From the NCBI RefSeq assembly GCF_002310375.3, contig NZ_CP023315.3, positions 1,984,001 to 2,048,000 on the forward strand: a stretch of DNA of 64,000 bases, written 5' to 3'. The DNA is from Caulobacter vibrioides. GTDB taxonomy: Bacteria; Pseudomonadota; Alphaproteobacteria; Caulobacterales; Caulobacteraceae. The first letter of the stretch is position 1. Each line of letters opens with the position of its first letter. The position numbers and the translations under genes are program-made. Of this stretch, positions 1,069-21,686 are shown in pieces. Below the pieces are notes generated by a model. That model saw nothing but the letters and a program-made list of their open reading frames with translations, made no database searches and was not told where the DNA came from.

Positions 1069-1890
1069 ATGCTGAACTCGATCAACACCAATCCTGGTGC
1101 GCTGCTGGCGCTCCAGAACCTGAATTCAACTAACACGGAGCTCGCCGCCACTCAGGGCCGTATCAACACCGGCAAGAAGGTCGCTAACGCCAAGGACAAC
1201 GGCGCGATCTGGTCGATGGCCAAGATGCAGAGCGCGACCGCGTCATCGTTGAACTCCGTGAAGGACTCCCTCCAACGCGGTCAGTCGACGATCGATGTGG
1301 CGCTCGCTGCAGGGGACACCATCACCGATCTGCTCACGAAGATGAAGGAAAAGGCCCTGGCCGCTTCCGACACCTCGCTGAACACCGCCTCGTTCAACGC
1401 GCTCAAGGCGGACTTCGAGTCTCTTCGCGACCAACTTGAAAAGGCCGCGACGAACGCGAAGTTCAACGGCGTCAGCCTCGCTGACGGCAGCACCACGAAG
1501 TTGGACTTCCTCGCTAACGAGGATGGCAGCAACTTCACGGTGACTGCGCAGACCCTGTCCCTCACGGGCATCGGTCTGACCGCGACCTCGACCTTCACCG
1601 ACGCCGCTACGGCCAAGACCATGATCGCGACGATCACGACTTCGTTGCAGACGGCCACGAACAAGCTGTCGTCTCTCGGTACGTCCTCTGTCGGTCTGGA
1701 TACTCACCTGACCTTCGTGGGCAAGCTGCAAGACAGCCTGGACGCCGGTGTCGGCAACCTGGTCGATGCGGATCTGGCCAAGGAAAGCGCCAAGCTCCAG
1801 TCGCTGCAAACCAAGCAGCAGCTGGGTGTTCAGGCTCTTTCGATCGCCAACCAGACGCCGCAGACGATCCTGTCGCTGTTCAAGGGGTGA
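1069..1890 (+). CDS. fljM: Flagellin FljM
   Basis: 273-residue flagellin, a short alphaproteobacterial form that keeps the conserved N-terminal helix ([18 protein letters not shown]) and the C-terminal helix ([20 protein letters not shown]) with a small middle domain. It is a filament subunit exported by the flagellar type III apparatus. I chose ATG 1069 although the frame is open upstream, because the flagellin N-terminus begins MLNSINTN and the sigma-54 promoter lies at 983-998, inside the upstream extension. First of three tandem flagellins and very similar to the next (fljN). It ends in ILSLFKG and is followed by two strong hairpins. Confidence 0.95.
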
Positions 1891-1898
1891 TCCCGATA

Positions 1899-1928
1899 CG
1901 CCGGACGGCCGTCAAAAGCCGTCCGGCG
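1899..1928 (+). terminator. Hairpin downstream of fljM (first)
   Basis: Perfect 11-bp stem CGCCGGACGGC (1899-1909) / GCCGTCCGGCG (1918-1928), starting 8 bases after the fljM stop and followed by a pyrimidine run (CCTCTTTCCT). Probable terminator or 3' stabiliser. Confidence 0.75.
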
Positions 1929-1978
1929 CCTCTTTCCTGCTGGGTGCGCAGATAGTGCCCGGCAACAATTTCCCATGG

Positions 1979-2013
1979 CGAAGGCTCCCGGCAGAAATTG
2001 CCGGGAGCCTTCG
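1979..2013 (+). terminator. Hairpin downstream of fljM (second)
   Basis: Inverted repeat GAAGGCTCCCGGCA (1980-1993) / TGCCGGGAGCCTTC (1999-2012), one further C-G pair outside it, 5-base loop. No clear T run follows. It lies between the first hairpin and the fljN promoter, so it could act as a transcription barrier or RNA-stability element. Confidence 0.6.
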
Positions 2014-2077
2014 TCGTTAATGGAACTATAACGCATATTTTTCAGTGATTTAGCGCGGCGTTGCCGGTGGGCAGAAT

Positions 2078-2093
2078 TGGCCCGGCAATTGCT
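2078..2093 (+). promoter_or_regulatory. Sigma-54 promoter of fljN
   Basis: TGGCCCGGCAATTGCT: GG at 2079-2080 and GC at 2091-2092 with a 10-base spacer. It sits 73 bases upstream of the fljN ATG, a spacing close to that of the fljM promoter. Confidence 0.9.
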
Positions 2094-2165
2094 ACAGGTC
2101 CTTCCGAGCAAAATGCTCCCGGCAGCCAAAATGGCGTCGGACACCTTGAAAAGGACTCTTTCGTT

Positions 2166-2987
2166 ATGGCGCTGAACAGCATCAATACGAACGCGGGCGC
2201 TCTGATCGCCCTGCAAAACCTGAACACGACCAACACCGAGCTGACCACCGTCCAGCAGCGCATCAATACCGGCAAGAAGATTGCCAGCGCGAAGGACAAC
2301 GGCGCCATCTGGGCGACCGCCAAGAACCAGTCGGCCACCGCCAACAGCATGAACGCCGTGAAGGACTCGCTGCAACGCGGCCAGTCGACGATCGACGTCG
2401 CGCTCGCCGCCGGCGACACCATCACCGACCTGCTCGGCAAGATGAAGGAAAAGGCTCTGGCCGCTTCCGACACCTCGCTGAACACCGCTTCGTTCAACGC
2501 CCTGAAGTCGGACTTCGACTCGCTGCGCGACCAGATCGAAAAGGCCGCGACGAACGCCAAGTTCAACGGCGTCAGCATCGCTGACGGCACGACCACCAAG
2601 CTGACCTTCCTGGCCAACTCGGACGGCACCGGCTTCACCGTCAACGCCAAGACCATTTCGCTCGCCGGCATTGGTCTGACCACGACCTCGACCTTCACGA
2701 CGGCCGCCGCCGCCAAGACGATGATCGGCACGATCGACACCGCTCTGCAGACGGCGACCAACAAGCTGGCCTCGCTGGGCACCAGCTCGGTCGGTCTCGA
2801 CACCCACCTGACCTTCGTCGGCAAGCTGCAAGACAGCCTGGACGCTGGTGTGGGCAACCTGGTGGACGCCGACCTCGCCAAGGAAAGCGCCAAGCTGCAG
2901 TCGCTGCAAACCAAGCAGCAGCTGGGCGTCCAGGCGCTGTCGATCGCGAACCAGTCTTCGTCCTCGATCCTGAGCCTGTTCCGTTAA
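2166..2987 (+). CDS. fljN: Flagellin FljN
   Basis: 273-residue flagellin, the same length as FljM and near-identical over long stretches (for example [30 protein letters not shown] and the whole C-terminal 90 residues). Filament subunit. ATG 2166 gives the family N-terminus [20 protein letters not shown]; the open frame upstream contains the sigma-54 promoter and is untranslated leader. It has its own promoter at 2078-2093. It ends [11 protein letters not shown], and a GC hairpin follows from 3000. Confidence 0.95.
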
Positions 2988-2999
2988 GGGGCAGGGACG

Positions 3000-3025
3000 G
3001 GGGCGGGCCATCCGGCTCGCCCCCG
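3000..3025 (+). terminator. GC hairpin downstream of fljN
   Basis: GGGGGCGGGC (3000-3009) pairs with GCTCGCCCCC (3016-3025) with one G-U pair, followed by GCCTTCTCC. It starts 12 bases after the fljN stop. Likely an intrinsic terminator with a weak U tract. Confidence 0.65.
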
Positions 3026-3100
3026 CCTTCTCCGGTTCGGTTGCTGGACTATCCTCAACAGAAAAGGAGGGCCGACCGATAAAACGTCGGCGTTTAAGAA

Positions 3101-3469
3101 ATGGAACCTAAAGCCGCACTGTCGGCCATCAGAGACTTTATTGCCCCTGTCGCGCCGTCGAACGCCCCGGAAGTCTCCGAGGGCGCAAAAGTCGTTGTGG
3201 ATCAGTCCGCGAAAGCCGGAGAGGTCGAGACGTCGCTCAAGGCTGAGCGCGCCGCGGCGGCCGAGGTCGAAAAGCCGGTCGATGATGGGCCGCAGCCGGG
3301 TGACCTTCGCTTGGTGATTGAGCACGACGACGCATCAGGCGCCTTTGTCTACAAGACGGTTGATCGCCGTACGGGTGAGACGCTTCAGCAGTTCCCCCGC
3401 GAAGAGGTCCTGAAGATGCGTGATGGCCCTGACTACGAGACGGGCGACGTTTTTGACGGCCAGGCCTGA
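3101..3469 (+). CDS. flaG: FlaG-family flagellar protein
   Basis: 122 residues. The C-terminal half reads LRLVIEHDDASGAFVYKTVD followed by RRTGETLQQFPREEVL, the classic FlaG pattern (conserved I/V-D-x-x-T-G-E-x-x-x-Q-F/I-P). FlaG proteins are small flagellar accessory proteins linked to filament length and assembly; their exact role is not settled. The N-terminal 60 residues are Ala/Glu-rich and probably disordered. It lies between fljN and fljO in the same orientation. No sigma-54 motif was found directly upstream. The symbol follows the family name and is not the historical Caulobacter flaG locus. Confidence 0.85.
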   Translation: MEPKAALSAIRDFIAPVAPSNAPEVSEGAKVVVDQSAKAGEVETSLKAERAAAAEVEKPVDDGPQPGDLRLVIEHDDASGAFVYKTVDRRTGETLQQFPREEVLKMRDGPDYETGDVFDGQA

Positions 3470-3650
3470 GATCGGCTGACAATCACCGGCCATGCCGGCG
3501 TGCGGCCGCCTGTCACAGGCGTAAACAGACATGGTTTATAAGCGTTAACCATAATCTTACTTTCTGAGACCATCTTGGGCGGCGATTAGATCGCTCGCCG
3601 AATCGCGCGCGATCGCAACCAACGGCAAAATCGCCGATCGGAGGCCGCGC

Positions 3651-4484
3651 ATGGCGCTTAGCGTCAACACGAACCAGCCCGCGCTGATCGCGCTGCAAAA
3701 TCTCAACCGCACCAACGACGACATGCAGTCGGTGCAGACCCGTATCAACACGGGTGAGGCCATTTCGACCGCCAAGGACAACGCGGCCGTCTGGTCGATC
3801 GCTCAGGCGCAGCGCGCCGACATGAGCGCCCTGAGCGCCGTGAAGATGAGCCTGGATCGCGCGACATCGATCGCTGACGTGGCGCTCGCGGCGGGGGAGT
3901 CCGTTTCGGATCTGCTCAAGCTGATGCGCGAAAAGGTCGTGGCCGCCAAGGATACCTCGCTGACCACCACCTCTCGCCAAGCCCTCAACGCCGACTTCCA
4001 GGGCCTGGTCAAGAACCTCAATCAGGTGATCAGCAGCGCGACGTTCGACGGCGCCAACCTGCTCAATGGCAGCCAGGCCGCCGACATGGCGTTCCTCGCC
4101 GACGCGGATGCTGGCCAATCGATCACCCTGGCCCTGCAGAACCTGTCGCTGGGCGGCACGATCAATACGCTGACGGCCACGGACGACATCCTGACGACCA
4201 CGACCGCCGCCGACGTGCTGACGCGCCTGGACGCGACCCTCAGCGCGGTGAACCAGGCCGTGGGCAATATTGGCACCCAGGCCAAGCAGATTGACGCCCA
4301 CAACACCTTCGTCGCCAAGCTGACCGACGTGCTGGAAACCGGGGTCGGAAACCTCGTCGACGCCGACCTCGCCAAGGAAAGCGCGCGCCTCCAGGCGCTG
4401 CAGGTCAAGCAGCAGCTGGGCGCCCAGGCCCTTTCGATCGCCAATAGCGCGCCTGAGATCATCCTGTCCCTGTTCAAGGGCTAG
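3651..4484 (+). CDS. fljO: Flagellin FljO
   Basis: 277-residue flagellin and the most divergent of the three: N-terminus [21 protein letters not shown]-terminus LQVKQQLGAQALSIAN then APEIILSLFKG. Filament subunit. A Shine-Dalgarno-like CGGAGG lies about 6 bases before ATG 3651. The middle region differs clearly from FljM/FljN (DANLLNGSQAAD-like segment instead of the shared [10 protein letters not shown]-type segment). Unlike the other two, I could not find a GG-N10-GC sigma-54 element in the 181-base upstream gap. Confidence 0.93.
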   Translation: MALSVNTNQPALIALQNLNRTNDDMQSVQTRINTGEAISTAKDNAAVWSIAQAQRADMSALSAVKMSLDRATSIADVALAAGESVSDLLKLMREKVVAAKDTSLTTTSRQALNADFQGLVKNLNQVISSATFDGANLLNGSQAADMAFLADADAGQSITLALQNLSLGGTINTLTATDDILTTTTAADVLTRLDATLSAVNQAVGNIGTQAKQIDAHNTFVAKLTDVLETGVGNLVDADLAKESARLQALQVKQQLGAQALSIANSAPEIILSLFKG

Positions 4485-4552
4485 TAGAGCTAGGTCCCGC
4501 CGCGCCCAGGGGCTAAGCTGCCGCTGGGCGAACCGGGGATTCGGCTACGAGC

Positions 4553-5107
4553 ATGATCGAACTGCGCGACTTGTTGGACGAGGACGAGGCGATCCTCTTT
4601 CAGTGGCGGTCCGAACCCGAGGTCGACCGCTGGATGTCCGACGCCGATCTTCCCAGCCGCGAAGCGCATGCTGCCTGGTTTCAGGCGCTGCGCAGCGACC
4701 CTGATATGCGCGGCTGGATGATCACCCGGGGCGGAGCCCCGATGGGTCTGCTGACGCTGACCGGGCTGACCAGTCACCATCGTCGCGCGAGCTGGAACTG
4801 GTTCCTCGGTTCGGCGGAGGCGCGGGGCAGGGGCGTTGGTCGCGCCGCCCAGGTGCTGGGCCTGGATCACGCCTTCCAGGAGCTGGGCCTGCACAAGGTC
4901 TTCGCCGAGGTCATGGCCGACAATGACGCGGCCCTGAAGGCGCAATCAGCCGCCGGTTTCCGCCGCGAAGGCTACCTCCGCGGTCACGTGCTGAAGGACG
5001 GCCTGCCACGGGACGTCGTGCTGCTTAGCATCCTGGCCTCGGAGTGGTCGGAACTGCGCGAGGCGGCCCGTCGGGCCCTTTCCGACGCAAACCTTATCGC
5101 GGCTTAA
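4553..5107 (+). CDS. GNAT acetyltransferase, PseH/FlmH-like (flagellin sugar modification)
   Basis: 184-residue GNAT-fold acetyltransferase. It opens with IELRDLLDEDEAILFQWRSE and carries the acetyl-CoA loop region ARGRGVGRAAQVLGLDHAF, then a C-terminal HKVFAEVMADNDAALKAQSA segment. This arrangement matches PseH, which N-acetylates the amino-sugar intermediate of pseudaminic acid, the sugar attached to Caulobacter flagellins. Its place directly after fljO supports that role and suggests it could be flmH, but a RimJ/RimL-type enzyme cannot be excluded from sequence alone. ATG 4553; no strong ribosome site is visible. Confidence 0.72.
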   Translation: MIELRDLLDEDEAILFQWRSEPEVDRWMSDADLPSREAHAAWFQALRSDPDMRGWMITRGGAPMGLLTLTGLTSHHRRASWNWFLGSAEARGRGVGRAAQVLGLDHAFQELGLHKVFAEVMADNDAALKAQSAAGFRREGYLRGHVLKDGLPRDVVLLSILASEWSELREAARRALSDANLIAA

Positions 5108-5186
5108 GCTGAAGTCTTAACGAGTCGTCAGCGATCCTGGGGCAAGGATAACAGCGGGGAGATTCGCGCCCCGGTCGGGACTCGCC

Positions 5187-8051
5187 GTGATCACTTTCGA
5201 TTCCAGCGCGCTGCTCAGCTACTATCAGGCCCGTACGGGCCTGACGGGCGCTGGCGCGTCTGGTGTTTCGACCACGTCGTCACGATCCAAGGCCGTCGTG
5301 CCCAACGCGCCCTGGCTGAGCAACGCCTCGCCGCCGGCCAGCGATCTCGTCCGAACCGCTCTGGCCGGCCGAAAGTTCATCGACGAGGGCGCCAACACAT
5401 CGAGCCTGAAGGGCGTCAGCGCCGACTACAAGAAGCTGTTCGCCACCTATCAGGCGCTCAACACGCTTTCGGCGCTCGCGACGCGCGCCGGCGAGAAGGG
5501 CGTCACCGACGGCGAGGTCTCCCGCCTGCAGACCGCCCTGACCAAAGGGCTCGGGGAGATCAGCGGCTACGTCCAGAACCTGTCGCTGGATCAGATGCGC
5601 CTGACGACGGGCGCGGTCATGACCACCGACAAGGGCACGGTCGGCGTGCCGAAGGCCACCTACAGCTACACGACCGACAAGCTCTACAGCGGCCAGTTCG
5701 ACGACGAGGTTCCCCGCTTCCAGGGCAATGTCGCGTTCGATGTCTCCGTAAAGAGCTTCGGCGTCACGTCGACGGTCACGATGGACCTGTCCGAGATGGG
5801 CGCGACGCCGCGGACCATGTCCAACGTCGTCACCTACATGAACGGCAAGATGAAGGCGGCGGGTTTCAACACCGACTTCTCCGTTCAGCGCACGCCGGGC
5901 GAGGAGCGCACCGTCCAGGTCAACGGCAAGCCCGTGAAGTTGCCGGCCACCGGCGATGACTTCGCCCTACGGGTCAATGGCGACTCCGTTGAGCAATTGA
6001 CCTTCTCTGCGCCGACCACGGCGCCGGCGGTCTATGTCACGACGCGAGCCGGCGATCCGGATCCCGACAAGAAGACCGAGACCGACGACGGCGTCTTCGA
6101 AACGACCCTCACCAAATACAGCGCGGCCGGACCGGCCGGTGGCCCCGGTGCGGGCGCGCCGGGCGGCAAGGTCTTTAGCGAGACGCTGCAAGGAACGATT
6201 TCCAGCGTTCGCAAGTCGGTTACCGGCGCGGACGGCTCGATCTACATGCTGGCGGACGTCGCCACTGAGGTCGATGGCAAGACAGACATCAATGGCCAGC
6301 CGATCAAGGGCGAGAGCGATGTCGCGCTGCTGAAGTATGACAGCGCCGGTCACCTTCTGTACGCGCGCTCGCTTGGCGCCACCGACAACGCCAGCGGCCT
6401 TTCGCTGGCGGTCGCCGATGACGGAAGCATCGCCGTGGCCGGGTCGGTCAGCGGCAGGCTGCAGGGTGCGGTCAACGGGCCGATCAACAACAGCGACAGC
6501 TCGACCACCACCGACAGCTTCGTCACGCGCTACGACGCCAAGGGCGACGAACAGTGGACGGTGCGTCGTGGCGGCCTGCAGGAGGACGAGGCTACGGCCC
6601 TGGCTTTCGGCGCCAACGGCGTTCTCTATGTGGGCGGTCGCAGCAAGTCTGACCTTCCCGGCGCGGTGGGCACGGACCCAGCCGGCGGCTGGGACGCCTA
6701 TCTTTCGGCCTTCGCGACGGATGCGAATGGTCAGCCTAAGGCGCTGTTCACCCAGAAGTTCGGCACCGCCGAGAACGACTCCGTCTCGGACATTGTCGTC
6801 AACGGTTCGCAGGTCATCGTCGGGTCCAAGGAAAACGGCCAGGCGATGCTTCGCAGCTTCGAGGTCAATCCGTCGGTCGTGACCGAGAATGTCACCAAGC
6901 TGAACCAGTACGGCGCCTATGAAAGCGTGCCCGTCACCTACACCAAGACCGCGACCCTGACGGCGGGCGCGACCCGCGACCTCGGCTCGCTGAAGGGCGG
7001 CGACATCGTCGGCCTGAAGATCGACGGCGGCCAGCTCTATGTCGGCGGCTACACGGCCAATAACCTGATGTCGATCGGAGGCGCGACGACCGCGCCGTCG
7101 GGCGGCATGGACGGTTTCGTGGGCCGGATGTCGCTCGACATCTCGAACACCACCAGCGACACGCTGACCTATTACGGCGGGACCGGCGACGACACGGTCA
7201 CGGGCTTTGCGGTCTCCAACGGTACGGCCTGGTTGGTCGGCGCGGCCGGCAAGAACCTGGACGGTGAAGAGACGGTCGGGACCAAGGACGGCTATGTCGC
7301 CCAGGTCAATGTCGGCACTGGCGCCGTCGACTGGAGCCAGCGCGTCACCGGCAAGGATGGCTACGCTGCGCCGACCTCGGTTGCGGTCTCATCATCCGGC
7401 GCCTCGTCTCTCGACGCGTTTGGCCTGCCCAGCGGCGCGATGGATTTCAGCCAATCCAACCGCATCGTATCGGCCACCTCGGCGCGGCCTGGCGACACTT
7501 TTCAGATTCGGACGCGGGAGCGCGGCGCGCTCACGACGGTCACGATCGACGCCAACGACACGCTGGAGACCTTGGCCGACAAGATCAAGCGCGCCTCGGG
7601 CTTCCGCGCCAAGGTCGAGACCGCCACCAGTGGCAACAGCCGCGTTCTGAAGATCAGCCCCGCGTCCAACAACGCCACCCTCGAGATCGTGCCAGGCAAG
7701 GGTGGGACCGATGTTCTGCGCTCGCTGGGCCTAGCGGGCGGCGTGGTGCGCGCGACGAAGACCGAAGACGGCAAGACCGTATCGGCCGACGGCAGCGGCC
7801 CTGTTTACGGGCTGCAACTGCCGCCGGAGCTGGACCTGACGTCCGAGGCCGGCCGAAAGAACGCCAACATGGTGATCACCCGGGCGATGTCCCAGGTGCG
7901 CACGGCGTATCGCGAAATCGCCGATACGGCCCTGGGGATCAAGACCGACACCACGTCGGGCTCTGGCAAGACGGGCGGGACGGTTCCGGCCTATCTGAAG
8001 AACCAGGTGGCGAACTATCAGGCCGCGCTCAATCGCCTGACGGGCGGCTAA
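5187..8051 (+). CDS. Large beta-propeller (SBBP-repeat) flagellar protein, FlaEY-like
   Basis: 954 residues, GTG start at 5187. The N-terminal ~170 residues are Ser/Ala-rich and helical with no signal peptide. From about residue 290 come repeated blades with G-x-I-x-V-A-G-x-V / GVLYVGGRS / QLYVGGYT motifs, as in seven-bladed SBBP repeat propellers. A region near residues 770-850 (DTFQIRTRERGALTTVTIDA, then DTLETLADKIKRASGFRAKV) resembles the flagellin hook IN motif of FliD and flagellins. The C-terminus is helical (MSQVRTAYREIADTALGIKT). No signal peptide plus the hook-IN-like part suggest export through the flagellum. It recalls Caulobacter FlaEY (similar size and context), but I cannot tell FlaEY from a paralogue. 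Confidence 0.65.
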   Translation: MITFDSSALLSYYQARTGLTGAGASGVSTTSSRSKAVVPNAPWLSNASPPASDLVRTALAGRKFIDEGANTSSLKGVSADYKKLFATYQALNTLSALATRAGEKGVTDGEVSRLQTALTKGLGEISGYVQNLSLDQMRLTTGAVMTTDKGTVGVPKATYSYTTDKLYSGQFDDEVPRFQGNVAFDVSVKSFGVTSTVTMDLSEMGATPRTMSNVVTYMNGKMKAAGFNTDFSVQRTPGEERTVQVNGKPVKLPATGDDFALRVNGDSVEQLTFSAPTTAPAVYVTTRAGDPDPDKKTETDDGVFETTLTKYSAAGPAGGPGAGAPGGKVFSETLQGTISSVRKSVTGADGSIYMLADVATEVDGKTDINGQPIKGESDVALLKYDSAGHLLYARSLGATDNASGLSLAVADDGSIAVAGSVSGRLQGAVNGPINNSDSSTTTDSFVTRYDAKGDEQWTVRRGGLQEDEATALAFGANGVLYVGGRSKSDLPGAVGTDPAGGWDAYLSAFATDANGQPKALFTQKFGTAENDSVSDIVVNGSQVIVGSKENGQAMLRSFEVNPSVVTENVTKLNQYGAYESVPVTYTKTATLTAGATRDLGSLKGGDIVGLKIDGGQLYVGGYTANNLMSIGGATTAPSGGMDGFVGRMSLDISNTTSDTLTYYGGTGDDTVTGFAVSNGTAWLVGAAGKNLDGEETVGTKDGYVAQVNVGTGAVDWSQRVTGKDGYAAPTSVAVSSSGASSLDAFGLPSGAMDFSQSNRIVSATSARPGDTFQIRTRERGALTTVTIDANDTLETLADKIKRASGFRAKVETATSGNSRVLKISPASNNATLEIVPGKGGTDVLRSLGLAGGVVRATKTEDGKTVSADGSGPVYGLQLPPELDLTSEAGRKNANMVITRAMSQVRTAYREIADTALGIKTDTTSGSGKTGGTVPAYLKNQVANYQAALNRLTGG

Positions 8052-8112
8052 GCGCATCTTTTCCACGACCGCCGCGCTTGAAAGCGTCATCGTCGCGTCG
8101 TAGCCAAGAGTC

Positions 8113-8802
8113 ATGGACTTTTTGAACGATCGACGGATCATCCTGGGCGGCGGAGCAGCGCTTGCGCTCGTCGCGGGTCTCGGCATCGCCGTGGCCTTGA
8201 TGTCGGGCCACGACAAGAAGCCCACGGAAGAGCCGCCGGCCTCGCGCGCGGGCCTGATCGTCGAGACCGGCCGCGCTGACGACACCAAGCTGGATCCCGC
8301 CCGTCCGCTACGCTGCTTCGTCGGCGGCGCCTTTGTCGGCGAGATCACCTTGGCCGAATGCGCCAAGAAGAATGGGGTCGCCACAGGCGCTCTGGACGTC
8401 GGCGTCGACGAAACCGGGGCCTTGGCCGCCGCCGATCAGGCCGGCATGGTTCTGACCCCGCTTCCGCCGACCCCGACCGAGACGACGCCGGCGGCCACCA
8501 CGCCCGCAGCGACCACCACGCCGGCGACCCCGTCGTCCAGCTCGGCGACCGCGCCGCTGGCGGCGTGCTGGCGCTACGCGGGCAACGAGTGGCGGCGACT
8601 GCCCGGAGACATCACCCTGAACGCCTGCGCCCAGCAGCTGTTCGGCGGGCGATGCGAGAAGACGGGCGGCGCGACCTATGGCCGATGGGGCGAGGAGACG
8701 TTGCGCCTGGTGCCGGGTCGCGTAGAGATTTCGTCGGATAACCGCAGCTTCCACACCGCGTTCGAGCAGGCCGCAAACTGCTCTATCCCGAACGCCGGAT
8801 AG
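8113..8802 (+). CDS. Membrane-anchored hypothetical protein
   Basis: 229 residues. One N-terminal membrane segment (about 9-30, GGAALALVAGLGIAVALM) is followed by a charged stretch, a domain with RPLRCFVGGAFVGEITLAEC, a Pro/Thr/Ala/Ser-rich linker (about 118-150) and a C-terminal domain with four Cys residues (ACWRYAGNEWRR, NACAQQLFG, RCEKTGG, ANCSIP). Both halves have a 'Cys, short strand, ECA/NACAQ' layout, perhaps a duplicated fold. Likely periplasmic. Function unknown. It is 62 bases downstream of the propeller gene and 17 bases before the next gene. Confidence 0.75.
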   Translation: MDFLNDRRIILGGGAALALVAGLGIAVALMSGHDKKPTEEPPASRAGLIVETGRADDTKLDPARPLRCFVGGAFVGEITLAECAKKNGVATGALDVGVDETGALAAADQAGMVLTPLPPTPTETTPAATTPAATTTPATPSSSSATAPLAACWRYAGNEWRRLPGDITLNACAQQLFGGRCEKTGGATYGRWGEETLRLVPGRVEISSDNRSFHTAFEQAANCSIPNAG

Positions 8803-8819
8803 GTTTATAAGTGTAATCC

Positions 8820-9218
8820 ATGAAGAAGACTGTCCTCGCCGCCGCCGTCCTCGCCGTTTCGGGTCTCGTGCTCGCCGGTTGCCAGAAGCAGACCAAGGCG
8901 CCGTTCGAGAAGGGCGTCTGCTTCCATGTCGCCACCAACAAGGACGAGACTCTGCGCTTCAATCCGGTCAGCCGGAATGTGCCGCAACTCGAGGAATGCG
9001 CGGCCACGCTCGAGGGCATGCGCATGCGGTTCGTGCGCTTGGGCCAGTCCAACAGCCGCAGCATGGTCGGCGCCTATCAGGGGTCCTTCATCTTCATCGA
9101 GAAGGAAGGGATCTATGTGGGCCAGTCCTACGAAGGTCCGCGCTTCATGTCGCTGGTGCGCACGGGCGATGGGCGTTTGGCGGTGCCGGGCGCCATTAAG
9201 CGCGTTCCCGCACAGTAG
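8820..9218 (+). CDS. Putative small lipoprotein
   Basis: 132 residues. The signal peptide ends with the lipobox LAGC (Cys21: VSGLVLAGCQKQ), so it should be lipid-anchored in an envelope membrane. The mature domain has two Cys (GVCFHVATNKDE, LEECAATLEGMRM) and short beta-like strands (GAYQGSFIFIEKEGIYVGQ). No family recognised. It follows the previous exported protein by 17 bases, so the two probably form a transcription unit. Its GVCFHV...LEECAATL layout echoes the CF...AEC layout of that neighbour, suggesting related domains. Confidence 0.78.
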   Translation: MKKTVLAAAVLAVSGLVLAGCQKQTKAPFEKGVCFHVATNKDETLRFNPVSRNVPQLEECAATLEGMRMRFVRLGQSNSRSMVGAYQGSFIFIEKEGIYVGQSYEGPRFMSLVRTGDGRLAVPGAIKRVPAQ

Positions 9219-9270
9219 GATGTTCGCGGCCTAACCACCGGCCGTCCACAAGCGCCTTGCTTGCCCACAA

Positions 9271-9285
9271 GAACGTTACGAGAAC
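9271..9285 (+). promoter_or_regulatory. LexA (SOS) box upstream of ssb
   Basis: GAACGTTACGAGAAC is GAAC-N7-GAAC, the reverse complement of the alphaproteobacterial LexA operator GTTC-N7-GTTC. It lies 86 bases before the ssb start codon in a 153-base intergenic gap. The family and operator type are established in Caulobacter; regulation of this gene is inferred from the site. Confidence 0.85.
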
Positions 9286-9371
9286 AAAACTTGCGTCTGG
9301 ATTAGCGGGTCGTTAACGTCTCGCTCCAGATTCCGGCGCATGGGTCGCCGGGCGAGAGCAAGGTCCAAGCG

Positions 9372-9878
9372 ATGGCTGGCAGCGTCAACAAGGTCATTCT
9401 GGTGGGCAACCTCGGGGCCGATCCCGAGATCCGCAGCCTCGGTTCGGGCGACCGCGTCGCCAACCTCCGCATCGCGACGTCCGAGACCTGGCGTGACCGC
9501 AGCAGCGGCGAGCGCAAGGAAAAGACCGAGTGGCACCGCGTCGTCATCTTCAACGACAACCTGGTCAAGGTCGCCGAGCAGTACCTGCGCAAGGGCTCGA
9601 CCGTGTACATCGAGGGCGCTCTGCAGACCCGCAAATGGACCGACAACACCGGCCAGGAAAAGTATTCGACCGAGATCGTGCTGCAGAAGTTCCGTGGCGA
9701 ACTGACCATGCTGGGCGGTCGCGGCGGTGAAGCCGGCATGTCGTCGGGCGGCGGCGACGAGTACGGCGGCGGCTATTCGGGCGGCGGCGGCTCCAGCTTC
9801 GGCGGCGGTCAGCGCAGCCAGCCCAGCGGCCCGCGCGAGAGCTTCTCGGCGGACCTGGACGACGAGATCCCGTTCTAG
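9372..9878 (+). CDS. ssb: Single-stranded DNA-binding protein
   Basis: 168 residues. N-terminal OB-fold (residues 1-110) with [26 protein letters not shown] and [13 protein letters not shown] motifs, then a Gly/Ser-rich linker, then the acidic tail DDEIPF that recruits replication and repair partners. Coats single-stranded DNA during replication, recombination and repair. Preceded by an SOS box at 9271-9285 and followed by a strong terminator, so it is a single-gene unit. Confidence 0.97.
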
Positions 9879-9927
9879 GACGCGAGCTGCGGCGGGATTT
9901 TCGATCCCGCGCCCGTCTGAAAACGCG

Positions 9928-9961
9928 CGGCGGATGGTCCGGAGGGAGCATCCGCCGTTTT
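9928..9961 (+). terminator. Terminator after ssb
   Basis: Stem CGGCGGATG (9928-9936) / CATCCGCCG (9949-9957), 12-base loop, followed by TTTT at 9958-9961. Confidence 0.82.
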
Positions 9962-10035
9962 CATGCTCGCGGGAAAGTGACCTCGACATCGTTCCTGGGT
10001 TGTGTTTCAGCTTCGTGCTGAAGCGGAGGACGATC

Positions 10036-16914: not shown

Positions 16915-17811
16915 ATGTCCAAGCTCCCTGACCTCGAAGGCCTCGCCGTGTTCGCCAAGGTGGCGGAGCTACGCTCGTTCGCCGCCGCCGCCGAGACCCT
17001 GGCCATGTCGAAGGCGACCGTGTCGAAGGCGGTGACGCGGCTTGAGCTGCGCCTTGGGGCCAGGCTCTTCAACCGCACGTCCCGGCGTCTGGCCCTGACC
17101 GACGCCGGCCAGGCGCTTGTCGAACGCGCCAGCCGTGTGCTGGCGGAGGCCGAGGCGGCCGAGGAGGAGGCCTCCAGCCAGTCCGCCTCGCCCCGCGGGC
17201 TTGTTCGGATGGCTGCGCCGATGTCGCTGGGCGTCGCCAGCCTGGCCCCGGTGTTGCCGGCCTTTCTTGAAGCCTATCCCGATGTCTCGATCGACCTGCA
17301 CCTGTCGGATGCGACCGTCGACCTGATCGGCATGGGGTTCGACATCGCGCTGCGCGTCGCCGACCTGCCAGACAGTTCGCTGGTGGCGCGGCGGCTGCGG
17401 GCGGTGCAGCGCCATGTGGTGGCCGCGCCAGCCTACTGGACGGCGCATGGGCGTCCGACCCATCCGGCGGACCTCGCTGAGCATCGTGGGCTGACCTACG
17501 GCCACCAGGCGTCACCGGAGACCTGGCGTTTCCAACGGGGGGGCGGAGAAGAGGCGGCCGTCCGTCCGCGTTCGGTCATCCGGGCCAACAACGGTGATGC
17601 GCTTTTGCCCGCGCTGCTGGCGGGCTCCGGCGTGGCCATGCTGCCCGACTTCATCGTGGGCCCGGCCTTGGCTGACGGACGGCTGGAGGCGGTGCTGAGC
17701 GAGTGGAGCGCCGCGCCGATCGCGCTGCACCTTGTCATGCCCCCTGGCGGGCCGCGCCCGGCGCGCGTCGAGGTGCTGGCCAACTATCTGGCCAAGACGC
17801 TCGGGCGCTGA
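16915..17811 (+). CDS. LysR-type transcriptional regulator
   Basis: 298 residues. N-terminal winged helix-turn-helix (FAAAAETLAMSKATVSKAVT, then RLELRLGARLFNRTSRRLAL) and a C-terminal periplasmic-binding-like effector domain with the AAPAYWTAHGRPTHPADLAEH segment typical of the CrgA/PecT-like subgroup. Probably autoregulates and controls the divergent pirin gene. Stops 6 bases before the convergent end of the repeat protein gene. ATG 16915; no strong ribosome site. Confidence 0.93.
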   Translation: MSKLPDLEGLAVFAKVAELRSFAAAAETLAMSKATVSKAVTRLELRLGARLFNRTSRRLALTDAGQALVERASRVLAEAEAAEEEASSQSASPRGLVRMAAPMSLGVASLAPVLPAFLEAYPDVSIDLHLSDATVDLIGMGFDIALRVADLPDSSLVARRLRAVQRHVVAAPAYWTAHGRPTHPADLAEHRGLTYGHQASPETWRFQRGGGEEAAVRPRSVIRANNGDALLPALLAGSGVAMLPDFIVGPALADGRLEAVLSEWSAAPIALHLVMPPGGPRPARVEVLANYLAKTLGR

Positions 17812-17817
17812 TCTTCG

Positions 17818-20256
17818 TTAGCCCAGGCTCTCGACCTGAGCCGGGGTGAACGCCCCAACCTGAAGCGGCGTCATGGCGGCGATATTGGTGGTCGAGAGCC
17901 AGTCCAGTTGATTGATGGTCAGGCCCGGGATCTGGGTCGGCGCCAGGTAGCCGACCTGGGTCGTGGTCAGGCCGGCGATCACGGCGGTCGACAGTGAGCC
18001 CAACTGACTGGCGTTCAGCGCCTGGATCTGACTTTCGCTGAATTGGCTGAAAGCGCTGGGCGACAGATTGCGCAACTGGAACGAGGACAGCCCCTTCAAG
18101 GAGTCAGGCGTCAAGGCCGCGTACTGCTCAGTCGAAAGGGCCGCCAGATTGGTCACGGAGATCGCGACCACCTGGCTCGCCGTCAGCGCGGCGACCTGGG
18201 TGGTGGTGAAGTCGGCGATGTCCGTCTGAGACAAGGCGCTCAGCTGATTGGGGCTCAAGCCCGAGATCTGCCCGGCGGTCAAAGCCTGGAAGGCCGTACG
18301 GTCCAGGCCGGTGAGATGTCTGGTCGAAAGCCCGCCGACCTGGGTTCCGGTCAGGGCGGCGAACTGGGTTGTCGAAAGTTCGGCGAGATCGGTGTTGGTC
18401 ATGCCGCCCATCTGGGTCGCGCTCACCCCCGCCAGCTGGGTGGCCGACAGCGCCGCAATCTGGGTCTGGCCAAGGCCGTTAAAGTTGGTGATCGACAGCG
18501 CACCGATCTGCTCGCCGCTGAAGCTGGCCACCTGGGTCGGCGTAAAGCGGGCGAAGTCGATGTCGCTCAAGGCGCTGATCTGGGTGGTGGTGACCGCCGC
18601 CAGCTGCGACGCGGACAGGGCCTGGATCGCGTTGGCGCTCAAGCGGTTGAAGTTGGTGGTCGCCAGCGCCGTCAACTGCGAGGGCGCGAAGGCCTTGATC
18701 TGGGTGGTGGAGAACTTGTCGAAGCCGGTTGTCGACAGCCCCGCGATCTGCGTCGTGGTCAGTGCGGCGAGTTGCGTTTCGGTCAGGGCCTGAACCTGGC
18801 TCACAGCGATCGCGTTCAGGGTCTTGGTGGCCAGAGCCGCGATCTGGACGCCGTTCAAGACTGCGGCCTGATCCGGCGTGAACTCTGCGAAATCGGCCTC
18901 GGTCAGGCCGGCGACCTGGGTCGTGGTCAGTCCGGCCAACTGCGTCGCGGTCAGCGCCTGGATCTGACTGGCGCTGAGACTGTTGAAGGCGGCGGGCGAC
19001 AAGGCGCTCATTTGCGTGGTGCTGAAGACCTGCACCTGATCGGGCGTGAAGGCGCCGAGGCTTGTTTCCGACAAACCACCGATCTGGGTCTTGCTGAGGC
19101 CCTTCAACTGGGTTGCGGTCAGCGCCTGGAACTGGTCGCGGCCAAGACTGTTGAGGCTGGTCGGCGACAATACGGCCAGTTGCGTCGTGGCCAGCACTTC
19201 CACCTGGGCCGGCGTGAACTCGGCCAGATCGTCGCCAGTCAGGCCCGCGACCTGGGTGGTGGTCAGCGCCGTCAACTGGGTCGCGTCGAAAACCTGGACC
19301 CGGTCCGCGGCAAGGCTGTTCAGGCCCGTCGTGCTCAAGGCCGAGAGCTGAGCGGCGCTGAAATGGCGCATCTGGGCGGCCGTAAACTCGGCCAGATCGT
19401 TCTCGCTCAAGGCCCGCAGCTGGGTCGGCTTCAGGCCGGCCAACTGCGTGCCGGTCAGGCCCGCGACCTGGGTCGCAGACAGCCCCGACAGGCCCTCGGC
19501 GCTGAGCGCGCCAAGCTGGGTTCCGCTCATGCCTTCGACGACGGCGTCTGAGAGCACGGCGGCCTGAGCCGCGGACAGGGCGGTGAGTTGCGAGGCGCCG
19601 AGCGACGTGATGCTGGTGCTCAGGCTGCGCAACTGGGTTGTCGACAGCGCAGCGACCTGAGTGGCGGTCATGCGCTGGAGTTGGGTGGTGCTCAGGGCCG
19701 CTAGGCGTGAGCCTTCCAGAGACGGGACCAGGTCGACGGGCAGGGCGGCGATCTGCGTTCCGGTCAGCGCGGAGATCTTCTCCAGCGAGAGCTCCTCCAG
19801 ATCGGTCGCGCTGAAGGCGGCGATCTGAGTGGTGGTCAGTTGCGCCAGCTGCGTCGTGCTCAGGGCCGCGATCTGGGTCGCGTCCAACGCCGTGAAGTGG
19901 GTGGCGTCCATGGCGCCGATCTGGACGGCGCTCAGCGCCTGCAACCTGTCCGAGTCGAGCTTGGCCAGCTGGGTCGAGGTCAGGGCGTTCAGCTGGACGC
20001 CGCTGAAGGCCTGAAGTTGGTCGACATCGAACAAGAGGTTCTGGGCGAAGGCCGGGATCTGGGTCGCCGTCAGGCCCTTGACCTGGGTCGACGAGAGCGC
20101 GGAGACCTGACTGGCGTCCAGAGTACCGATCGCTGCGTCCGACAGCGCGCCGACCTGGGTCTTGGTCAGCGACTCCAGTTTGGTGGTCGACAGGGTCTGT
20201 ATCGTCGTCGTCGCCAGGGCGGCGATCTGGGCGGCGGACAGGTACGAAATCGGCAC
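17818..20256 (-). CDS. Octapeptide-repeat solenoid-like protein of unknown function
   Basis: 812 residues, GTG start at 20256. Nearly the whole protein is an uninterrupted array of about 99 eight-residue units with consensus (L/F)-(S/T)-x-T-Q-(L/I/V)-x-(A/G). From residue 267 to 770 the units are grouped in nine super-repeats of exactly seven units (56 residues): unit 3 often ends D-L-A-E or similar, unit 4 starts F-T, and unit 6 often carries N near its end. The only breaks are an irregular stretch near residues 70-83 and one seven-residue unit near 212. No signal peptide, membrane segment, Cys or enzyme motif. It lies 89 bases downstream of an Hsp70-like gene on the same strand. An octad with one large hydrophobic position suggests a beta- or alpha/beta-solenoid; an adhesin or structural role is speculation. 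Confidence 0.85.
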   Translation of the reverse strand: MPISYLSAAQIAALATTTIQTLSTTKLESLTKTQVGALSDAAIGTLDASQVSALSSTQVKGLTATQIPAFAQNLLFDVDQLQAFSGVQLNALTSTQLAKLDSDRLQALSAVQIGAMDATHFTALDATQIAALSTTQLAQLTTTQIAAFSATDLEELSLEKISALTGTQIAALPVDLVPSLEGSRLAALSTTQLQRMTATQVAALSTTQLRSLSTSITSLGASQLTALSAAQAAVLSDAVVEGMSGTQLGALSAEGLSGLSATQVAGLTGTQLAGLKPTQLRALSENDLAEFTAAQMRHFSAAQLSALSTTGLNSLAADRVQVFDATQLTALTTTQVAGLTGDDLAEFTPAQVEVLATTQLAVLSPTSLNSLGRDQFQALTATQLKGLSKTQIGGLSETSLGAFTPDQVQVFSTTQMSALSPAAFNSLSASQIQALTATQLAGLTTTQVAGLTEADFAEFTPDQAAVLNGVQIAALATKTLNAIAVSQVQALTETQLAALTTTQIAGLSTTGFDKFSTTQIKAFAPSQLTALATTNFNRLSANAIQALSASQLAAVTTTQISALSDIDFARFTPTQVASFSGEQIGALSITNFNGLGQTQIAALSATQLAGVSATQMGGMTNTDLAELSTTQFAALTGTQVGGLSTRHLTGLDRTAFQALTAGQISGLSPNQLSALSQTDIADFTTTQVAALTASQVVAISVTNLAALSTEQYAALTPDSLKGLSSFQLRNLSPSAFSQFSESQIQALNASQLGSLSTAVIAGLTTTQVGYLAPTQIPGLTINQLDWLSTTNIAAMTPLQVGAFTPAQVESLG
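17947..19458 (-). repeat. Nine tandem 168-bp (56-codon) super-repeats
   Basis: Coding repeats for residues 267-770 of the octapeptide-repeat protein. Each 168-base unit contains seven 24-base subunits. Copies are diverged, but the order of marker subunits is kept in all nine. Confidence 0.8.
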
Positions 20257-20345: not shown

Positions 20346-21686
20346 CTAGCCTGCGCGCATGGTCCAGAGATCCAGGTCCGCTTCGCGACCGATCAGGGCC
20401 AGGCCCGAGGCGATCGACTCGAACTCGCCGCCGCTCTCGATCTTGTCGGCGCCGAAGCGACGCAGGAAGATCTCGCGCACCGCCGGCACGAACGAGCTGC
20501 CGCCCGTGAGGAACACGCGATCGACGCCGGCTTCAGTGAGGTTGGCCTGAGCGAGGGCCTGGCCCACGGCCGTCTCGATCGCCGCGAGTTCGGGCGCGAT
20601 CCAGGCTTCGAACTCGGACCGCGCCACGGGCTTTTCGATCCGCACCGAGCCGGCCTCGAACCGGAACGTCGCTTCGTCCTGGCTCGACAGCGCCTCCTTC
20701 AGCGCCGAGACCGAGCGATACAGCGCATAGCCGTGATTGCCGTCCAGCACCTCGATCAGCGCGGCGATCTTGTCGGGCTCGACCGCCGTCCGTTCCAGGG
20801 CGCGGATGTCGCGCATGTCCTTGGAGGCGCGCAGCAGGGCCAGCTGGTCCCAACGCGCGAAGGCGGCGTAGTAGCGCTGCGGGATCGGCAGGCTGTTGGA
20901 GAACGACCGGTAGTCCGAACCCTTGCCCAGCTCCGGCGAGACCAGCTGGTCGATGATCCGATAGTCGAAAGCGTCGCCTGCCACGCCGACGCCTGAGCGC
21001 GATAGCGGTGTGGAACGCAGCGTCCCGTCCGTAGCGCGCTCGAACCGCACCAGCGAGAAGTCACTGGTGCCGCCGCCGAAGTCGGCCACCAGCACGGTGG
21101 CGTCCTGCTTCAGTTGCCGGGCGAAGAAGAAGGCCGCGCCGACCGGCTCATAGGCGTAGCGGATATCGGTGAAACCCAGACGCTGGAAGGCGGCCTCATA
21201 GCGCGTCAGCGCCAGGGCCTCGTCCGGCGAGGAGCCCGCGAAGGTCACCGGACGGCCGACGATGATGCGCGGTGGCAGGTCCGACAGTTGCGCGCCCGCA
21301 TGGTCGCGCAGGCGGAGCAGGAAGGCGGCCAGCAGGTCTTCGAACTGGTAGCGCTTGTTGAGAATGCGCGTCTCGGTAAAGGCGGCCGAGGCGGCGAAGG
21401 TCTTGAACGACTGGATGAACCGCGTCTCCAGCGGATCTTCCAGATAGGACTCGATCGCCCAGGGGCCGGCCTCGACCACCCGCTCGTTCGCCGCCTCGCC
21501 CACGCCCTGGACGCTATGAAAGCTGAGCGCCGAGCGGAAGGCGAAGAGGTCGCGGTTGTTGATCGCATAGCGGACCAGCCGCGCCTGATCATCGCCCAGG
21601 GTCAGCGAGACCACGGTGTTGGTGGTGCCGAAGTCGACGCCGATGGTCGGCGCGCCAGCGGCCGAAACGGAGGAAGCGGCCGTCAT
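20346..21686 (-). CDS. Hsp70-family protein (YegD-like)
   Basis: 446 residues, comparable to E. coli YegD and shorter than DnaK (~640): it has the actin-like ATPase domain but not the full substrate-binding and lid domains. Motifs: IGVDFGTTNTVVSL (phosphate 1), VLVADFGGGTSDFSLVRFE (phosphate 2), VFLTGGSSFVPAVREIF (adenosine). Function of this subfamily is unclear. ATG 21686. The octapeptide-repeat gene follows on the same strand after 89 bases, so this could be a chaperone for that protein, which is inference. Divergent from the flavoprotein gene. Confidence 0.9.
   Translation of the reverse strand: MTAASSVSAAGAPTIGVDFGTTNTVVSLTLGDDQARLVRYAINNRDLFAFRSALSFHSVQGVGEAANERVVEAGPWAIESYLEDPLETRFIQSFKTFAASAAFTETRILNKRYQFEDLLAAFLLRLRDHAGAQLSDLPPRIIVGRPVTFAGSSPDEALALTRYEAAFQRLGFTDIRYAYEPVGAAFFFARQLKQDATVLVADFGGGTSDFSLVRFERATDGTLRSTPLSRSGVGVAGDAFDYRIIDQLVSPELGKGSDYRSFSNSLPIPQRYYAAFARWDQLALLRASKDMRDIRALERTAVEPDKIAALIEVLDGNHGYALYRSVSALKEALSSQDEATFRFEAGSVRIEKPVARSEFEAWIAPELAAIETAVGQALAQANLTEAGVDRVFLTGGSSFVPAVREIFLRRFGADKIESGGEFESIASGLALIGREADLDLWTMRAG

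Follow-up and report, generated by a model that had tools for sequence, protein, structure and literature searches.

What is a protein that consists almost entirely of one eight-residue unit, and what might it do? The question is raised by a gene on the minus strand of the window that we analyzed (64,000 nucleotides of Caulobacter vibrioides, contig NZ_CP023315.3, positions 1,984,001 to 2,048,000). An earlier note, made from the letters of this window, had described the 812-residue product as ~99 octapeptide units with a higher order of seven units, and had recognized neither a known family motif nor a described family. By its Pfam match, the protein is a member of an already catalogued family, the ALTTAQ octapeptide repeats, and not of a new one. 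Our preferred explanation, to which we assign a probability of about 0.55, is that the protein is an alpha-solenoid rod of this family that is glycosylated and probably exported. The repeat itself is already in Pfam; the new parts are the pitch common to its lineages, the block-wise growth of the gene and the link to a GT41 glycosyltransferase.

The octad array and its helices

PF20080 (ALTTAQ_rpt) matches the protein in 32 stretches with an E-value of 1.3e-88 (290.8 bits; cut-off 26.4) and outscores all other Pfam matches by far. The PF20080 model holds the same octad as the window protein, in tandem over the whole protein, but spans 38 residues (not quite five octads), so it contains neither a seven-unit block nor the longer period described below. 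The matches to Pfam CAAP1, LRR_EndoS, Sigma70_r4_2 and DUF4351 and to PHROG 15773 are likely chance matches of a periodic sequence; a search of NCBIfam gave no match, and PADLOC reported nothing for the repeat protein.

A dynamic-programming parser divides the protein into 99 octads (792 of the 812 residues) of the type L-[ST]-x-x-Q-[LIV]-x-[AG], tandem over most of its length, in agreement with the count in the earlier note. Only 20 residues lie outside the units, that is, VPISY (residues 1-5, directly after which the octads begin), the two interruptions FAQNLL and LSTSITS (Table 1) and LG (811-812). The proposed nine indel-free blocks are also borne out: residues 267-770 are nine gapless blocks of 56 residues, and the identity between units is 0.444 at a lag of seven units and 0.446 at a lag of 14, compared with 0.300 for shuffled whole units (z 7.8 and 7.5; none of 2000 shuffles reaches either value). 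At the remaining lags between 1 and 13 units, the identity is 0.259-0.318. Residues 1-266 alone show no excess at 56 residues (lag-7 identity 0.224 vs 0.206-0.287 at lags 1-6). The earlier note had counted both a match to an existing repeat family and a missing 56-residue excess as evidence against its description; the match exists, and the excess survives self-comparison.

The units of a block are not equivalent, and the features noted earlier at particular block positions recur in the counts. Of the 29 acidic residues in the nine blocks, 17 fall in unit 3, and of the 16 Asn, nine fall in unit 6; eight of the nine copies of unit 4 begin with Phe. Neither unit 3 nor unit 6 ever has Gln at position 5 (0/9 in each). 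As had been stated, the protein has no Cys; its calculated isoelectric point is 4.35, and 202 of its 812 residues are Ser or Thr.

Structure prediction, one of the checks that had been proposed, gives all-helical AlphaFold2 models with, for the most part, one short helix per octad. A three-block model (168 residues) has exactly 21 helices for 21 octads (predicted local distance difference test score, pLDDT, 91.9; predicted template modeling score, pTM, 0.82); a single-sequence model of the full-length protein has mostly one helix per octad (pLDDT 77.3, pTM 0.46). Neither model contains a beta strand. By the models, each octad would be one short alpha helix, which the Ser/Thr and Gln residues may cap; an alpha-solenoid fold of the 812-residue protein is well supported.

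Leucine-rich repeats are built of 20-30-residue units (LxxLxLxxN) with a beta strand, and pentapeptide repeats and beta-helices of five-residue units in a beta coil. Weak phmmer, profile and Pfam matches to leucine-rich-repeat proteins could be taken to place the window protein among these or among the beta-solenoid (pentapeptide-like) proteins. We consider this very improbable: the unit is 8 residues, not 20-30 or five, both models are all-helical, no pentapeptide or beta-helix family of Pfam matches at E ≤1, and PF20080 outscores the leucine-rich-repeat matches by far.

A second period and the pitch of the array

Each array was taken as a series of units, and its power spectrum was compared with that of shuffled units. 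For the window protein, the main peak is at 3.52 units (z 12), and weaker ones lie at 6.94 and 2.34. All ten groups of relatives, including paralogues and other families of the phylum, have a peak at 3.40-3.48 units, and all five plasmid-borne proteins have one at 3.38-3.44 units. The 3.4-3.5-unit peak is the strongest in eight of the 11 rows (the window protein and the ten groups) and the second strongest in L130 and L138; the group scan started at 2.1 units, and this start hid the two-unit alternation of f48 g122, in which 2.00 units is strongest and 3.40 second (genus g122 has a strong two-unit, i.e., 16-residue, alternation, z 183). In three of the five plasmid-borne proteins, the 3.38-3.44-unit peak ranks first by z; in the two from Rhizobium, it ranks third or fourth, and their peaks near 8.5-8.8, 5.5, 4.2 and 2.4 suggest a block of ~17 units; in the Niveispirillum protein, the peak at 2.00 has a higher power ratio. 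Where the 3.4-3.5-unit peak is not the strongest, the harmonics of a longer block or a two-unit alternation are stronger.

The autocorrelation differs between lineages: the long Caulobacter paralogues have peaks at 7, 14 and 17 units, group g109 and G004 have them at 4, 10 and 14, and G445 has one at 17; judged from the sequences, these peaks are all near whole multiples of ~3.4-3.5 units and fit one pitch. We infer as the simplest account one superhelix with ~3.45 octads (27-28 residues) per turn. Because the strongest period is ~3.5 units, a block of seven units most probably spans two superhelical turns instead of one; a solenoid or superhelix remains the likely reason for the two-level periodicity, as the earlier note had argued, but the seven rungs per turn that it had suggested find no support.

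The 56-residue order might instead be the mere footprint of a 168-bp tandem duplication, with no structural meaning. Such a footprint would be consistent with the rise of nucleotide and synonymous-codon likeness at lags 7 and 14 (codon agreement for the same residue is 0.563 and 0.571, and 0.43-0.55 at the other lags below 14), with the 168-bp array of 2.5 copies reported by Tandem Repeats Finder and with gaps of exactly 56 residues between near-orthologues. However, the ~3.4-3.5-unit peak is also found in groups with different autocorrelation peaks, and the period of the window protein is carried above all by position 5 of the octad (power 8.6 times null), followed by position 1 (4.8 times); a pure footprint is therefore, in our judgment, quite unlikely.

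Gain and loss of blocks in the Caulobacter gene

Of 75 Caulobacter genomes, at least 23 carry the window-type gene (among the matches listed). Compared with its orthologue in G001, the gene has 0.085 nonsynonymous (dN) and 0.55 synonymous (dS) substitutions per site, that is, a dN/dS of 0.154 and clear purifying selection; dN/dS is 0.44-0.51 relative to the more distant G032, G030 and G033. Because of this selection, and because its orthologues keep the same neighbors, the repeat reading frame is on these comparisons a real gene. Between the genome of the window (G000) and G001, the dS of the repeat gene (0.55) exceeds that of the neighboring Hsp70-like gene (0.214).

Lengths were read for 21 of the 23 genes, all but G483, with its two frames, and G460, which matches only at the C-terminus: 812 residues in three genomes, 867 in two, 527-532 in fourteen, and 756 and 724. 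When the window protein is aligned with its orthologue from G001, G030 or G032, the sole gap is exactly 56 residues. Twenty of the 21 orthologues have 7n+1 units, allowing up to two truncated units and the site at residue 212; these are not 20 independent events, because the short forms are probably mostly inherited. Among 12 chosen orthologues, pair identity is 0.65-0.72 for residues 1-120 and 0.76 for residues 761-800, and residues 281-520 are present in only a fifth to a quarter. The alignments show that, in Caulobacter, the gene lengthens and shortens in its middle by blocks of what would be two turns, with conserved ends.

The features of the locus are collected in Table 1. In G008, which has no ALTTAQ match in its genome, the Hsp70-like protein is 96% identical and the Hsp70-like and LysR genes are 83 bp apart, that is, the site is empty. 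A C. vibrioides metagenome-assembled genome (L100, 5692-7718) carries the window-type gene as two frames that overlap, of 426 and 319 residues. No promoter-like site was found near the repeat gene, and terminator-like sites near it show no excess over shuffles.

Table 1. Coordinates of the repeat gene, its parts and its neighbors in the window
Feature	Position	Strand	Description and evidence
ALTTAQ octapeptide-repeat gene	17818..20256	minus	812 residues, GTG start, TAA stop; PF20080 match, octad parse
Nine blocks of 56 residues (seven octads, 168 bp each), residues 267-770	17947..19458	minus	self-identity by lag
N-terminal octads without a clear 56-residue period, residues 1-266	19459..20256	minus	residues 1-120 belong to the best-conserved parts of the orthologues
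Six-residue interruption FAQNLL, residues 70-75	20032..20049	minus	interruption here in 21/21 orthologues read
Seven-residue interruption LSTSITS, residues 212-218	19603..19623	minus	full octad in 4/21 orthologues (G016, G006, G469, G453)
Conserved C-terminal octads, residues 771-812 and stop	17818..17946	minus	orthologue conservation
Hsp70-like (YegD-like) neighbor	20346..21686	minus	89 bp upstream of the repeat gene, same strand
LysR-family regulator neighbor	16915..17811	plus	convergent, 6 bp from the repeat gene; borders the empty site in G008

Candidate partner genes and comparison with known systems

Clues to the function come from the genes that accompany the relatives. Of 75 Caulobacter genomes, 31 have ALTTAQ genes, and precisely these 31 have one type of GT41 gene; because the genomes are related, they do not amount to 31 independent observations. 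Both sets were read from match listings by eye and then compared; presence of the GT41 gene was taken as an E-value of 3.1e-200 or better (the next genome has 3.7e-111), and a PF20080 search of six of the 44 genomes that lack a P0001 match likewise found none. In all 14 long-paralogue Caulobacter loci fetched, the GT41 gene lies directly beside the long ALTTAQ gene; e.g., near C1:2.737 Mb of G000 (L060), genes for a TPR-GT41 protein (2743-4761) and an FkbM methyltransferase-domain protein (326-2746) follow the 2530-residue ALTTAQ frame. In Caulobacter, this adjacency is a property of the long paralogues and not of the window gene; the window-type gene, among the matches listed, is seen only in genomes with the GT41 gene (23/23).

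Five plasmid loci were fetched of 57 records with a match. In the four that are annotated (two Rhizobium, Pseudomonas and Rhodovastum), a GT41 gene adjoins the ALTTAQ gene; in the unannotated Niveispirillum record, two GT41 genes lie within 8 kb, as does the gene for an ABC transporter with 27.7% identity to the type I one of Pseudomonas. The Pseudomonas locus (L160, 3525-8006 and 10792-18858) contains TolC-family, HlyD, type I ABC and GT41 genes near the ALTTAQ gene. HlyD is encoded beside five of the seven g109 loci fetched, with an ABC gene also in two; in L140, L143 and L146, the HlyD match is incomplete and lies where the fetched sequence ends. Type I genes are seen only beside relatives such as L139, L141 and L160.

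We propose a glycosylated and exported rod because GT41 and type I genes lie beside relatives and because FlmG provides a precedent in Caulobacter; for the window protein, both modification and export would be by analogy with these relatives. The octad helices would stack into a narrow, one-chain superhelical rod with ~3.45 octads per turn, so that each seven-unit block would make two turns; units 3 and 6 (Asp/Glu or Asn, with no Gln at position 5) would then lie near each other on one side, separated by ~50 degrees, as a single lengthwise stripe. In Caulobacter, the gene gains and loses these blocks, on this reading two turns each, in its middle and keeps its ends. The protein would be made in the cytoplasm, O-glycosylated on Ser/Thr by the GT41 enzyme encoded beside the long paralogue and then, if it is exported in Caulobacter at all, displayed on the surface or secreted as a rod of adjustable length. 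Extended to the whole family, this explanation becomes more tentative, and we hold the odds to be somewhat against it: ALTTAQ proteins could be widespread single-chain rods with one helix per octad, glycosylated by a dedicated TPR-GT41 enzyme while still in the cytoplasm and then exported, with lengths set mainly in whole-turn quanta (seven units for two turns, ~17 for five) and the non-Gln stripe as a binding or glycosylation face.

Several observations weigh against parts of this proposal. As to the geometry, the full-length model fuses some neighboring helices (e.g., residues 277-290 and 349-362), residues 76-211 (17 units) alone show no 3.4-3.5-unit period and, synonymous codon choice being more alike at lag 7, duplication history contributes to the 56-residue period. 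As to growth, the G016 orthologue has 88 units, outside the 7n+1 rule, and the gaps among long paralogues include 1, 6, 8 and 9 units besides 3, 7, 14 and 17. As to the candidate partners, neither GT41 nor type I genes adjoin the window gene or its orthologous loci, where the neighbors are the Hsp70-like and LysR genes, and the adjacency to ABC, HlyD and TolC genes that is usual, if not obligatory, for a type I substrate, a class of proteins with an uncleaved secretion signal at the C-terminus, is not found at the window gene. In eight genomes that have both ALTTAQ and GT41 genes, no window-type gene is seen (among the matches listed), and the stretches fetched for g109, g122 and G445 contain no GT41 gene. 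In G001, which has ALTTAQ genes, no HlyD adaptor scores above the curated cut-off, whereas one does in each of G008, G019 and G314, all of which lack ALTTAQ genes; type I secretion therefore does not track the family in Caulobacter.

The last point, together with the absence of type I genes beside the window gene, would suit a protein that is not exported, that is, an alpha-solenoid in the cytoplasm that acts as a scaffold or client together with the adjacent Hsp70-like (YegD-like) protein, whose gene is conserved beside the repeat gene on the same strand. The Hsp70-like gene, however, also occurs in genomes without the repeat gene: of 21 genomes searched, 20 contain it (E-value 1.9e-186 or better), among them all eight chosen for having no ALTTAQ match, so the Hsp70-like protein is not dedicated to the repeat protein. 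The restriction of the window-type gene, among the matches listed, to genomes with the GT41 gene also argues against such a scaffold, which we regard as rather unlikely.

The family extends well beyond the window gene: 28 of 398 sampled genomes of the phylum have a PF20080 match, 25 of them above the cut-off. G000 itself has two further ALTTAQ genes (open frames of 2530 and 1373 residues) and a second GT41 gene (600 residues). Genus g122 (L131-L134, L142) has very large ALTTAQ frames, up to 6436 residues among the matches listed. In L145, successive ALTTAQ frames (3-1211, 1215-5219 and 5223-9998) are split by single stop codons and contain sub-arrays of eight and ten units. The Pseudomonas plasmid protein (L160, 10792-18858; 2688 residues, annotated hypothetical) has no Pfam family listed beyond the repeats; a similar non-repeat tail (..NDGxxQLLVAxxVHT..) ends this protein and a 5446-residue frame of G427 (L130), after which a GT41 gene begins. 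On the Rhodovastum plasmid (L161, 1-8520), the ALTTAQ and GT41 genes are near a set of flagellar secretion genes. No ALTTAQ-type protein was found when viral contigs were scanned with six peptide patterns, and tblastn against phage records gave no match. A literature search that was judged by titles and did not cover subscription journals and preprints found nothing on the structure or function of the ALTTAQ repeat.

These results give the ALTTAQ repeat a testable geometry (~3.45 octads per turn), a growth rule for its genes and a candidate partner enzyme with which its function can be tested in Caulobacter, an organism of the laboratory. If lengths do change mainly by whole turns, the sequence alone suffices to read the pitch of a natural fold. 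A one-helix repeat of such simplicity and regularity could also be a template for designed rods.

Among known folds, the nine best Foldseek matches of the 168-residue model are mesothelin (8cx3, 8fsl, 7ued and others), a human cell-surface protein. In PMC10035497, mesothelin is described as 24 short helices that form a right-handed solenoid of nine layers, with 27-37 residues per repeat; a word search of PMC2628672 found no mention of bacterial relatives. The ARM/HEAT (mesothelin-like) class is defined by a right-handed superhelix with two to three helices and ~27-40 residues per turn. The receptor-binding protein of C. difficile phage CDHS-1 (7qlr) is another likeness (12% identity, with a Z that is middling for a helical repeat). 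With the full-length model, Foldseek returned long HEAT proteins (template modeling score by query 0.08-0.18) and viral proteins, which are likely chance matches of a periodic sequence.

The best-scoring PDB sequence is HeliScrew4 (PDB chain 9zem_A, name as deposited), which, with PF20080, speaks against the view of the earlier note that no such family had been described: it consists of ~14 octads of the window-protein kind and matches the protein alone with an E-value of 1.2e-14 and the block alignment with 1.3e-25, gapless across 108 residues. It differs in having only 120 residues and, judged from its sequence and name alone, reads like a designed protein; it is not among the fold-search matches listed, and a literature search that excluded subscription journals and preprints found no paper on it.

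The likeness that bears on function is to FlmG of Caulobacter crescentus. FlmG, as described in PMC7591256, is a cytoplasmic TPR glycosyltransferase that modifies flagellins before export; like the ALTTAQ-linked GT41 protein, it combines TPR and glycosyltransferase parts in one enzyme, but it acts on another substrate and is reported to have 596 residues, compared with 672 for the ALTTAQ-linked enzyme.

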